Positions 27,578 to 31,855 of a stretch of 40,888 bases of DNA are shown piece by piece. Every line of letters starts with the position of its first letter. Positions within the stretch are counted from its first letter, which is position 1. A program made the translations under genes and the position numbers. The DNA lies in NCBI GenBank assembly GCA_019114825.1, contig DXES01000163.1, forward strand, positions 1-40,888, in the 5' to 3' direction. Origin of the DNA: Candidatus Anaerotruncus excrementipullorum. Lineage in GTDB: Bacteria > Bacillota > Clostridia > Oscillospirales > Ruminococcaceae. The notes beneath the pieces are model-generated. The model was not told the DNA's origin. It did not search any database and was given only the letters and a program-made list of their open reading frames with translations.

Positions 27578-28738
27578 TTGCATAGACGGTTTGCCGCCGC
27601 CGCGCTGGGGCTGGTGCTGCTGGCCACCCCGGCGGCCGCCTTCGCCCAGGGGCCCCAGCCCCCCGCCGGCCCCTGGGCCGCCAGCTGGGACTACCTGGCC
27701 CAGCAGCCCCCCGGCAGCCAGAGCATCCTGGTCCATGCCCTGGGCGGCCAGCCCCAGCTGCCCGCCGCCCTGGACCAGCTGGAGCAGACGCTGGACCGGG
27801 GGACCGGCCAGGGGTTCTCCTCCGCCCAGGAGCTGGCGGAAGGGGTGGTGGCCCTGGCCAAGCTGGAGCAGGAGCCCACCGCCTACCGCCGCCAAAACCT
27901 GGTGGCCGCCCTCGCCTCCTACGGGGATATCTATGGGGAGGGGCTGGCGGGGCCCTGCGCCGTTCTGGCCGCCTACCACACCGCCGGGGCTGTGGTGGAC
28001 GCCTCCGCCCGCAACGACGAATCGGCGGTGATCGACTACCTGGTCTCCTCCCAGCAGCGGGAGGGGGGCTTCGCCCCTTCGGCCGGGCGGGACCCCAGTA
28101 TCCAGACCACCGCCCAGGCACTGATCGCCCTGGCCCCCTATGCCGGCGTGCCCTATGTGGGCAGCGCGGTGGAGCGGGGGCTGGATTGGCTGGGCCGCCA
28201 GCAGAATGACGACGGCAGCTTTTCCGCCGGGAACACCCCCAGCTGTGCTGCCACCGCCGCCGTCTGGACGGCGGTACGCACCTGCGGGCTGCCCGCCGGG
28301 GACCCCCGGTTTGTAAAGGAGGGGGGCGGGCTTCCCCAGGCGCTGGCCCGGTTTGCCCAGGGGGGCGGGGGCTACGGCGAGCAGGCGGAGGGCCCCGCCC
28401 AGGTGGCCGCCACCGAGGCGGCGCTGATCGCCCTGATCACCGATGCCTCCGGGCTCTCCCCCTACCTGCCCCCCGCCGCCTACCCCGGATATGTCCCCCC
28501 TGTGCCGGAGCCGGAGGGGCCTCCCCTCTGGCAGAGGGCGCTGGCGGGCTCAGGGATCCTGCTGGCGGCCGTCCTGGGGACGGCCCTGCTGGTCCGCCGG
28601 CGCCACAAACGCCCGCCCCAGCCCCCCATGGACGGCACCCAGACGATGGATTTCCAGATCCCCATGAAGGCCCAGATGCCCGATTTCGGCCAGATCCCCC
28701 CCACCCAGGACCCGCCCTCCTCCGGGCAGGCCCCCTGA
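27578..28738 (+). CDS. Exported prenyltransferase/squalene-oxidase-repeat protein
   Basis: The 386-aa protein starts with TTG (LHRRF...), supported by GGAAAGGGGGAGAGG about 8 nt upstream; no ATG is near. It has a signal peptide (cleavage probably after AAAFAQ), then alpha/alpha-barrel repeats of the prenyltransferase/squalene-cyclase type (LVSSQQREGGF, GLDWLGRQQNDDGSF, QVAATEAALIALI). A C-terminal helix (about 315-340, GSGILLAAVLGTALLV) is followed by RRRHKR and a Pro-rich tail. The topology suggests an outward-facing domain held by a membrane anchor. The QxxDGSF-type repeats are intact, but a catalytic acid cluster was not recognised, so it may be a binding or structural protein. Confidence 0.75.
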   Translation: MHRRFAAAALGLVLLATPAAAFAQGPQPPAGPWAASWDYLAQQPPGSQSILVHALGGQPQLPAALDQLEQTLDRGTGQGFSSAQELAEGVVALAKLEQEPTAYRRQNLVAALASYGDIYGEGLAGPCAVLAAYHTAGAVVDASARNDESAVIDYLVSSQQREGGFAPSAGRDPSIQTTAQALIALAPYAGVPYVGSAVERGLDWLGRQQNDDGSFSAGNTPSCAATAAVWTAVRTCGLPAGDPRFVKEGGGLPQALARFAQGGGGYGEQAEGPAQVAATEAALIALITDASGLSPYLPPAAYPGYVPPVPEPEGPPLWQRALAGSGILLAAVLGTALLVRRRHKRPPQPPMDGTQTMDFQIPMKAQMPDFGQIPPTQDPPSSGQAP

Positions 28739-28749
28739 GCCCCCGCCGC

Positions 28750-28781
28750 AGGCGGCCGCCCCACCGGGCGGCTGCCTTTTT
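28750..28781 (+). terminator. Terminator after the prenyltransferase-repeat gene
   Basis: A 12-bp stem AGGCGGCCGCCC / GGGCGGCTGCCT (one wobble) with a 4-nt loop, followed by TTTTT. Confidence 0.75.
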
Positions 28782-28794
28782 AGGCAAAAGCGCC

Positions 28795-28822
28795 TTGACT
28801 TTTCGGCAAAATCTGCTATGAT
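28795..28822 (+). promoter_or_regulatory. Promoter of the exporter leader
   Basis: TTGACT, a 16-bp spacer and TATGAT. The predicted start near 28829 leaves a leader of about 105 nt before the exporter gene. Confidence 0.7.
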
Positions 28823-28828
28823 AACAGA

Positions 28829-28916
28829 CATCCGCCTGCCGCCGGGTAGGCAGAAGCACTTATGGCTGCATCGTTAGGCCTTGGAAGATGCAGCCATAGG
28901 CGCTTTTTTATTTTTT
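28829..28916 (+). ncRNA. Candidate guanidine-type riboswitch ending in a terminator
   Basis: The leader holds a short hairpin (CTGCC-GCCGGGTA-GGCAG, 28836-28853) followed by a 12-bp terminator stem TATGGCTGCATC / GATGCAGCCATA (28861-28898) with a 14-nt loop GTTAGGCCTTGGAA and the T-rich run CGCTTTTTTATTTTTT. The exporter ATG is only 19 nt beyond. The loops share short complementarity (GGGT with GCCT, or GCC with GGC), so a loop-loop contact is possible. The gene it controls is of the guanidinium-exporter type, which fits a guanidine riboswitch. It does not look like classes I-III; the terminator-overlapping, two-hairpin layout is most like class IV (mepA motif), but I recall that layout only in outline. 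Confidence 0.6.
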
Positions 28917-28934
28917 GTGGAAAGGATGAGGGAA

Positions 28935-29255
28935 ATGGCGTGGTTCTATTTGGGCATTGCGGGGCTGATGGAGGTGGTCTGGTCCACCTGTATGAAGTAC
29001 TCCAACGGCTTTTCCGACCTGAAATTCTCGGCCCTTACAATCGCGGGCATGGTGGTGAGCTTCTTTTTCCTCTCCCAGGCCACCAAGGTGCTCCCCCTGG
29101 GCACCGCCTACGCGGTCTGGACGGGGATTGGGGCGCTGGGGGCGCTGGCCGCCGGCATCCTGCTCTTTAAGGAGCCGGTTTCCGCCCCCCGGCTGCTGTT
29201 CGCCGGGCTACTGCTGGCGGGCATCCTGGGGCTCAAGGCCACCTCGGGGCACTGA
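28935..29255 (+). CDS. gdx: SMR-family guanidinium exporter (Gdx/SugE-like)
   Basis: The 106-aa membrane protein has four transmembrane helices and matches the SugE/Gdx branch of the small multidrug resistance family: FYLGIAGLMEVVWSTCMKYS with the central Glu in helix 1, and PLGTAYAVWTGIGALGA in helix 3, which is the Gdx signature. Gdx proteins exchange guanidinium for protons and work as dual-topology dimers, so one gene suffices. The start at 28935 is supported by AAAGGATG 6-8 nt upstream; the track's start runs through the riboswitch terminator. Control by the upstream leader is inferred. Confidence 0.9.
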   Translation: MAWFYLGIAGLMEVVWSTCMKYSNGFSDLKFSALTIAGMVVSFFFLSQATKVLPLGTAYAVWTGIGALGALAAGILLFKEPVSAPRLLFAGLLLAGILGLKATSGH

Positions 29256-29261
29256 GGGGTG

Positions 29262-29299
29262 CAAAAAAGAGGGGGCCTTCCCGGCGGGAAGGCCCCCTC
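29262..29299 (-). terminator. Terminator after the DHHW gene
   Basis: A 14-bp perfect stem GAGGGGGCCTTCCC / GGGAAGGCCCCCTC with a GGC loop, followed by TCTTTTTTGC on the minus strand. It also separates the convergent gdx gene. Confidence 0.8.
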
Positions 29300-29308
29300 G
29301 CTGTGTGG

Positions 29309-30463
29309 TCAGCGGTTCAGATAGGTCAGGTTGCTGTCGCTGGCGAAGTTCATAAAGCTGTAGAGGATCAGCAGGTCGTCAAACTGGGTGGAGGAGACCA
29401 GCTCGGTCATGCTCTGGGTCAAAAACCGCAGGTCCACCACGTAGATCTCGTCGTAGCTGTAGGTCAAAAACGGGATCAGGCTGTTGCCGTAGCTGTCCTT
29501 CACCACCAGGATGCGGGAGGTCTCCCCCGCCCTGTGGTTCAGGTTGTTGTCCGACCGGATCACCATCAGGTCGTTGTTGCCCCAGAGGAAGGCGGCGTAT
29601 TTATCCCGCACCGGCCACTTGGAGGCATCGTAGAGGCCCTCCCGGGGTTCCCCCGCCACGGTGACCGAGGTGGTGGGGATGTCAAAGTAGGTGATGGTAT
29701 CCGGCTGGGCGGAGAACAGCTTGCATTTGCTGTAGTAGGTGCCGTAGAAGTCCTCCACCTGCCGCTCTAGAGGGGCCAGATCCTCCCAGGAGACCGCCTG
29801 CAGCCCCCGGGACTCCACAAACGCCCGGTAGGTCTGGTAGGCCCCCCAGGTGGTCCAGTGGTGGTCGGTCTTGTAGTAGAGGTCCTCCCCCTCCGCCTGG
29901 CCCTCCAGCATGGGCAGCAGGTCCAGGGTATTCACCCGGCTGGAAAACTGGCTGTAGATCCCCTGGATGGCCGCCTGCTGGTCCAGGTTGGGCAGCCCGG
30001 CGGGCAGATCATCCACATAGACCATATAGGAGCTGGGAACCAAAGCCACTGTCAGCGGAATTCGGTCCTGCCAGGTCTCTGTGAACCGGGTGAGAAACTC
30101 CACATTCATATCCAGACGCTGTTGATCGGTGGAGGGGTAGTACTCAAACATCCGATGCTCGTCCCCATAGACGATGCCGTTGTTCTCAATCTTCCCCAGG
30201 GCCGACTCGCTCACGGATTTTAAGGTGATCCAGGCGTCCCGTCCCACAAACTGGTCATTCACATATTGCTCATAGCGGTAGCTGTATTTCTGGTTCTCCT
30301 CCCGGGCCAATAGGCTCTGGAGGGTCATCTGGGGGCGCTGGGCCAGTTTCCTGTTCTCCATTTCGCTCTCCACGCGGGAGGAAAAGAGAGGATCGACCAC
30401 ACTGAGCACCACCATAAATACGGTGAATAGGAGGAGCAACGGGTATTTTTTGAAAACTGCCAC
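29309..30463 (-). CDS. DHHW-family protein (AlgX/AlgJ-like, SGNH-type)
   Basis: The 384-aa protein has an N-terminal membrane helix (about residues 8-25) and an external domain with the family signature DHHW (200-203, YYKTDHHWT) and KDSYGNS (322-328). These motifs resemble the AlgX/AlgJ group that helps O-acetylate polysaccharides together with an MBOAT protein. The MBOAT gene lies 12 bp upstream and is co-directional, so the two are probably a pair: the MBOAT protein moves acyl groups across the membrane and this protein places them on a surface polymer (inferred). Confidence 0.85.
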   Translation of the reverse strand: MAVFKKYPLLLLFTVFMVVLSVVDPLFSSRVESEMENRKLAQRPQMTLQSLLAREENQKYSYRYEQYVNDQFVGRDAWITLKSVSESALGKIENNGIVYGDEHRMFEYYPSTDQQRLDMNVEFLTRFTETWQDRIPLTVALVPSSYMVYVDDLPAGLPNLDQQAAIQGIYSQFSSRVNTLDLLPMLEGQAEGEDLYYKTDHHWTTWGAYQTYRAFVESRGLQAVSWEDLAPLERQVEDFYGTYYSKCKLFSAQPDTITYFDIPTTSVTVAGEPREGLYDASKWPVRDKYAAFLWGNNDLMVIRSDNNLNHRAGETSRILVVKDSYGNSLIPFLTYSYDEIYVVDLRFLTQSMTELVSSTQFDDLLILYSFMNFASDSNLTYLNR

Positions 30464-30475
30464 TGCGATCCCTCC

Positions 30476-31855
30476 TCAAAATCTAAAGTACAAAAACGGG
30501 TTGTAGGTGGAGTCCACCAGATAGGCCACCGAAAGCACCAGTACCAGCATCAAAAATGGTGTGGCCAAAGCTTTGGTGAATTTGGGGAACCGCTCCAGCA
30601 GCCGGTTGAGCACCGGCACCGAAAATACCATTCCCAGAAGCAGCACCACCGCGTAATTGCGCAGATAGAACATCCAATCGCTTCCGCCAGTGCCATTGAA
30701 CAACTGGCAGAACAGTGACCCCATCTGCCCCAAATCGGTGATAGCGAACAGCACCCAGCCAATCAACACCGCAAACAGCGCATATACATGGGAGATGACC
30801 CGGTGCTTGTCCAAAAATCGCTTTAAAAACAGCCGCTCCAGGGCGATGAGCGCAAAGGAGTAGAGGCCCCAGAAGACAAAATTCCAGCTTGCCCCGTGCC
30901 ACAGCCCTGTCAGTGCCCACACCACCAGCATATTCCGGTATTTTAGCAGCGGTTTCACCCGGTTCCCCCCCAAGGGGATGTATACATACTCCCGGAACCA
31001 GCCGCCCAAGGTCATATGCCAACGGCGCCAAAACTCGGTAATGCTCCGGGAAATATAGGGATAATCGAAGTTTTTGGGGAAGGTGAATCCCAAGGCCTTG
31101 CCCATGCCGATGGCCATGAGGGAATAACCAGAGAAATCAAAATAAATCTGTAGGGCATAGGCCAACAGCGCCAGCCAGGCTAGGGCAGTGGAAACGCTGC
31201 CAAATCCCAAAGCCTCCACCTGGCTCCAAAGAGCGCCCACATTGTTGGCCAACAGCACTTTGCTGCCCAATCCCAGGATAAACAGAGCGATCCCCTCCTG
31301 GATCCCCGCTAGGGTCACCGTCCTGCGTTTGAGTTCCTGGCTGATGTCAGAATATTTTACAATCGGCCCAGCGATCAACTGGGGGAAGAGCACCACAAAG
31401 GTGCCGAAATCAATGATGCTGTGTTCCGCGGTCACCTTCCGGGCATAGACATCCACCGTATAAGTCATGATCTGGAAGGTATAAAAGCTGATACCCAGCG
31501 GCAGCGTCAATTGCAGATAGGGCAACGACAGCCCGAACAGTCCATTGAGATTGGAGAGGAAAAAATTTGTATACTTAAAAAACGCCAGCCAGCCGATGCT
31601 GAACACCAGGGCCGCCACTACAATCGCCCGGCGGGCGGGCTGATTTTGGTCAAACCGTTCAATGGCCAATCCGGCGAAAAAGTTTACCAGGATCACCGCC
31701 AGCATCACCGGAAAATAGCGGACCTCCCCCCAGGAGTAAAACACCAGGCTCGCGATGAGCAACACCAGGTTCTTCAGCCGTTTGGGGGCCAGATAGTAGG
31801 CCGCAAATGTGATGGGCAGAAATCGAAATAGAAATAGCAAACTGCTAAAGACCAA
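30476..31855 (-). CDS. MBOAT-family O-acyltransferase (AlgI/DltB-like)
   Basis: The 459-aa polytopic membrane protein has the family's MVFSSLLFLFRFLPI start, repeated membrane helices and the invariant histidine in LTGLWHGASWNFVFWGL. AlgI-type MBOATs take acyl groups (usually acetyl) from a cytoplasmic donor and hand them to an outside partner. The start codon is TTG at 31855, supported by AGGAGAGAGGTGAGG a few bases upstream. The DHHW gene follows 12 bp downstream. GC content over this gene is visibly lower than its neighbours. It has its own promoter (31941-31969). Confidence 0.93.
   Translation of the reverse strand: MVFSSLLFLFRFLPITFAAYYLAPKRLKNLVLLIASLVFYSWGEVRYFPVMLAVILVNFFAGLAIERFDQNQPARRAIVVAALVFSIGWLAFFKYTNFFLSNLNGLFGLSLPYLQLTLPLGISFYTFQIMTYTVDVYARKVTAEHSIIDFGTFVVLFPQLIAGPIVKYSDISQELKRRTVTLAGIQEGIALFILGLGSKVLLANNVGALWSQVEALGFGSVSTALAWLALLAYALQIYFDFSGYSLMAIGMGKALGFTFPKNFDYPYISRSITEFWRRWHMTLGGWFREYVYIPLGGNRVKPLLKYRNMLVVWALTGLWHGASWNFVFWGLYSFALIALERLFLKRFLDKHRVISHVYALFAVLIGWVLFAITDLGQMGSLFCQLFNGTGGSDWMFYLRNYAVVLLLGMVFSVPVLNRLLERFPKFTKALATPFLMLVLVLSVAYLVDSTYNPFLYFRF

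Follow-up and report, generated by a model that had tools for sequence, protein, structure and literature searches.

Genomic context of the gdx gene

The stretch of DNA analyzed here (the window, 40,888 nucleotides of Candidatus Anaerotruncus excrementipullorum) carries on its plus strand a gene, gdx/sugE (28935–29255), for a guanidinium exporter of the SMR family comprising 106 amino acids. This assignment is based on a match to PF00893 (1e-31), on SugE (PRK11431) as the top NCBIfam model (110 bits, slightly below the cut-off of 126) and on proteins of known structure, among which the PDB chain 6wk5 is nearest (identical sequence in 6wk8, 6wk9, 7szt and 8tgy; E 1e-37). Another of the nearest solved relatives is 8vxu (E about 1e-37), and EmrE lies far behind (2e-12 versus about 1e-37 for the nearest chains), which agrees with the Gdx signature noticed in the initial annotation. 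The PDB title of the nearest chains reads 'Multidrug resistance protein, SMR family'; in the literature, 6wk5/6wk8/7szt and 8vxu are known as Gdx-Clo, an exporter of guanidinium, and a mutant form of this protein. In the source genome, which is incomplete (79% complete), gdx is the only SMR gene detected.

Upstream, a terminator-like hairpin on the plus strand (28751–28781, GGCGGCCGCCC-CACC-GGGCGGCUGCC followed by T5) was spotted by eye and is absent from the pattern-scan list; as a weak call, it may close the upstream prenyltransferase-like gene. On the other side, a strong hairpin (29269–29299) lies between gdx and a convergent gene for a DHHW protein, and its T run serves this minus-strand gene. 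At 29312–31855 (minus strand), the DHHW/AlgX-like protein adjoins an MBOAT acyltransferase, and the two are probably a pair for polysaccharide O-acetylation.

Architecture of the leader

The whole arrangement from promoter to start codon spans 28795–28937, and all of its elements are located on the plus strand. It starts with a sigma-70-type promoter (28795–28822, TTGACT and TATGAT separated by 16 nt, 10 of 12 consensus positions), the sole sigma-70-like site within 28600–29350, where shuffled sequences lead one to expect 0.1. In minimum free energy folding, the promoter is followed by hairpin P1 (28834–28851, GCCUGCC-GCCG-GGUAGGC) with the tetraloop L1 (GCCG, 28841–28844), and the base of a second, much longer hairpin, P2 (28852–28907), abuts P1 directly. 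P2 is an intrinsic terminator: it contains 14 uninterrupted pairs (28859–28872 with 28887–28900) within an interrupted stem of 20 pairs and runs into a U6 tract (T6 in the DNA, 28904–28909). Its loop L2 (GUUAGGCCUUGGAA, 28873–28886) has 14 nt. A purine-rich ribosome-binding region lies between the terminator and the exporter ATG at 28935. The order of promoter, small hairpin, terminator and exporter start is therefore the one given in the initial annotation, and its terminator of 12 bp has to be corrected to 14 bp, or 20 when interruptions are included. The minimum free energy of the leader is -45.2 kcal/mol (z = -6.6), a value as low as this being reached by 0 of 200 shuffled sequences.

Conservation and covariation in related leaders

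Among 53 SugE loci sampled from named genomes, eight exhibit the architecture found in the window: an uncultured Anaerotruncus (L009), Firmicutes CAG:176 (L010), four Enterococcus loci (L029, L036, L037, L048) and two from Anaerovibrio (L055, L056). Counting the window, this common design is thus seen in nine leaders of SugE/Gdx genes (Oscillospiraceae, Enterococcus and Anaerovibrio), and the uncultured Anaerotruncus even has TTGACT/TAAAAT at the position equivalent to the window promoter. Across these relatives the stems vary and the loops barely do, loop 1 reading rCCG and loop 2 being close to (g)TTAGGyCTTnGAA; conservation of the loops, the lack of which had been named beforehand as speaking against a riboswitch, is thus present. 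On the viral contigs one SMR relative was found, the sequence of which starts just before the gene, such that there is no leader to compare.

When P1, P2 and the kissing pairs between the two loops (rCC/GGy) are considered jointly, 90% of the cells are paired in the nine SugE leaders and 12 of 18 pairs are changed on both sides; over 38 leaders, these values are 94% and 13 of 18. Pairing falls below 40% when the partners are slid by one to three columns. Five of the seven P1 pairs change on both sides in the 38 leaders, and for P2 the covariation backs the upper eight pairs. L2 is highly conserved across the leaders and holds the kissing bases G28877, G28878 and C28879 as well as the conserved G28884. 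The kissing side of L1 is made up of G28841, C28842 and C28843 (28841–28843), which pair with 28877–28879. Conservation in relatives together with covariation places the leader element far beyond chance.

With a first covariance model, built from the nine leaders including that of the window, the element was detected in 129 out of 394 genomes belonging to the same order as the window. Among 129 members that could be parsed by script, 98 have A-U as the first kissing pair, 25 have G-C and two G-U, with A-C in apparently four cases, the last being a script error in which the wrong AGG was chosen in the loop. The remaining two kissing pairs (C-G) are invariant in the 38 leaders. A second model was calculated from 36 leaders, with both the window and its close relative L009 left out. 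It retrieves 28832–28910 with 73.2 bits (E 2.4e-16), 8.1 bits being the highest score elsewhere in the window; as its alignment had been fitted with the first, window-containing model, the letters are independent and the register is not wholly so. Two elements (L154 and L191) have deviating letters in loop 2 (e.g., GAUAGGCUUCGCA in L154) and may be degenerate or variant-ligand forms.

These data also bear on the question of whether the structure is just a plain terminator or attenuator, or a leftover terminator, that does not sense any ligand. A strong hairpin with a U tract would indeed terminate transcription unaided. However, conservation is higher in both loops than in the stems, and the pair that joins the loops shows covariation in about 130 leaders, which precede transporter genes of several unrelated families. 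Neither feature would be required of a bare terminator, and we regard this explanation as highly unlikely.

Comparison with known guanidine riboswitches

An Rfam 15 scan of the window at the gathering score matched no guanidine family, and at E values up to 10 it returned chance matches only, chiefly to miRNA families, whose models accommodate the long hairpin. The models for guanidine-I, -II and -III remained without a match in the window at either setting, and the initial annotation had correctly placed the fold outside classes I to III. Guanidine-I (ykkC, RF00442) has the ligand and the gene family in common with the window but a quite different fold; the same scan detects it in ten other SugE leaders. 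In a relative from the same family (L003/L040), guanidine-I is located before sugE, as read by eye. Class IV, on the other hand, is not matched by this Rfam copy even where the motif is present, as in SugE leaders from Enterococcus and in leaders of PnuC genes, and the copy appears to lack a guanidine-IV family. Since it overlooks clear examples of the motif, its silence says nothing about this class, and an Rfam scan without a guanidine hit should not be equated with a new class. The absence of any such hit, put forward in the initial annotation as a reason to abandon guanidine sensing, was formally observed and is void, as true carriers of class IV are missed too. A search of plasmids for a SugE leader assigned by name to Lactococcus or Clostridium botulinum yielded distant SugE genes only and no validated guanidine-IV sequence. 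Comparison with the RNAs from L. lactis and C. botulinum was therefore made via described positions and spacing and is not a letter-by-letter alignment.

A guanidine-IV riboswitch has reportedly been described by Salvail et al. in 2020. The class is identical with the mepA motif and GGAM-1 (Lenkeit et al. 2020, PMC7736828), takes the former name from mepA (PMC12186494) and is associated with transporters of the SugE, PnuC and MATE classes (PMC7736828). The window leader shares with it two hairpins, the 3' one of which is a Rho-independent terminator (as evident from folding, U6 and covariation of both stems), an rCC/GGy loop-loop pseudoknot (GCC/GGC in the window), a position upstream of SugE/Gdx genes (in relatives also of PnuC and MATE genes) and occurrence in Firmicutes. 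The full set of gene partners is found when Gdx in the window is taken together with PnuC, MATE and SMR proteins in the survey. In the guanidine-IV RNA from L. lactis, mutation of G66, U67 or G72 in loop 2 abolishes guanidine binding (PMC7736828), while the kissing loop of the C. botulinum RNA contains A29-U72 and C30-G71, and G77 has also been mutated as a key position (PMC11611296). Judged by spacing, G28878, C28879 and G28884 in the window are the counterparts of L. lactis G66/U67/G72 and C. botulinum G71/U72/G77, with G28841 and C28842 in loop 1; the two conserved Gs, G28878 and G28884, are six apart as in guanidine-IV. The window has GUUAGG in loop 2, whereas the numbering of the L. lactis RNA implies GUAGG, which is one base shorter, as is the case in one of the Enterococcus leaders (L048).

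A further difference is that the first kissing pair is G-C in the window and A-U in the commoner form. The equivalent of U67, which is 97% conserved in the class, is C28879, and loop 1 carries the compensating G28841; about a fifth of the members in the window's order have this G-C pair. Since an A29G-U72C double mutant of the C. botulinum RNA restores the kissing loop (PMC11611296), the G-C pair, as read from the sequence, is a natural counterpart of this mutant, in which the departure from U to C is compensated. Natural G-C kissing pairs are ready test cases for the binding pocket. That they mark a functional sub-variant of guanidine-IV that differs in its guanidine threshold or, slightly, in its ligand seems improbable to us.

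A related idea is that the leader resembles guanidine-IV and responds to a different ligand, being either the Gd4v motif or some further variant, and that this ligand is what the exporter transports. Gd4v has the same architecture of two pseudoknot-joined, terminator-linked hairpins (PMC9788692) and is enriched in the gut, and the G-C kissing pair of the window is the less common form. However, in the subsets compared, the Gd4v terminator invariably bears an additional hairpin (D2) (PMC9788692), whereas loop 2 of the window is open and 14 nt long. Position D1 is never G in those subsets (PMC9788692), in contrast to G28884 in the window, provided that D1 is the G72 equivalent, as we infer from the text of that paper. 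Furthermore, Gd4v never precedes COG2076/SugE genes (PMC9788692), and the gene in the window is of the SugE type. On these three grounds, assignment to Gd4v was rejected, and we consider a guanidine-IV-like RNA for another ligand very unlikely.

Taken together, these likenesses lead us to conclude, with a probability of about 0.93, that the leader (28832–28910) is a guanidine-IV (mepA/GGAM-1) riboswitch acting as a transcriptional ON switch, with ligand binding and switching inferred by analogy. It is a previously uncatalogued member of the class, which is well supported and not surprising. The suggestion that the terminator itself contributes to the aptamer, a class-IV trait, is supported. 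The same cannot be said of the alternative offered alongside it, namely a guanidine riboswitch of a new class, which would be the fifth. In its favor is that no Rfam guanidine model matches the leader. Against it, the Rfam copy also overlooks carriers of class IV, and the element agrees with this class in its architecture, the letters of its loops, the covariation of the kissing pair and the genes that it precedes. A new class was rejected on these grounds, and we give it next to no credence.

Proposed mechanism of switching

Guanidinium binding, the direction of switching and the steric role of the linker are transferred to the window from the class-IV literature. The transcript would begin near 28830, and P1 would be the first structure to fold, with loop 1 (GCC) exposed. 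The upper part of P2 would form next and expose loop 2 (GGC). At this stage the kissing pairs G28841-C28879, C28842-G28878 and C28843-G28877 could join the loops while a single-stranded linker still parts the hairpins, and guanidinium would sit in a pocket formed by both loops. If the kiss is held by guanidinium, P2 should be unable to zip to its base, and the polymerase would read into gdx such that the exporter is made. In the absence of guanidinium, P2 would extend until it abuts P1, the kiss would be sterically lost, and the stem of 20 pairs with U6 would terminate transcription. The riboswitch would thus most likely allow the cell to turn on its guanidinium pump upon guanidine build-up.

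When the leader was folded stepwise, P1 was stable by 28854, upper P2 was present by 28894 (-26.6 kcal/mol) with a free linker of about 10–13 nt to P1, and the full stem was reached by 28909 (-45.2 kcal/mol), at which point the linker was gone. According to the published model, the linker becomes shorter as P2 extends, and the kiss is broken if it has not been stabilized by guanidinium (PMC11611296); the computed folding path of the leader fits this model.

Genes following related elements

Guanidine-IV is common in the window's order and mostly precedes genes for PnuC-type and MATE transporters. The 133 proteins encoded after the elements include 72 PnuC-type NMN_transporter, 34 MatE and nine SMR proteins, six PNPOx-like flavoproteins and five SfLAP proteins. 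To our knowledge, guanidine transport by PnuC-type and MATE transporters is still unproven. An EamA/DMT-like protein follows the element in one genome (L081:1605–2051) and is probably the single EamA match.

Proteins resembling the six PNPOx-type flavoprotein matches (Pyridox_ox_2/PNPOx_N) are encoded directly under the element in six genomes (L087, L114, L142, L168, L170, L186), and SfLAP-like membrane proteins (PF11139) in five (L094, L102, L140, L146, L189). Loci were assigned to the PNPOx and SfLAP matches by the look of the sequences, the SfLAP loci being read from the sequences. A similar protein is also encoded 3' of sugE in Anaerovibrio (L055/L056), and these placements hint at a role of PNPOx-type flavoproteins in guanidine biology. 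The SfLAP-like proteins are possibly a further family of guanidine exporters.
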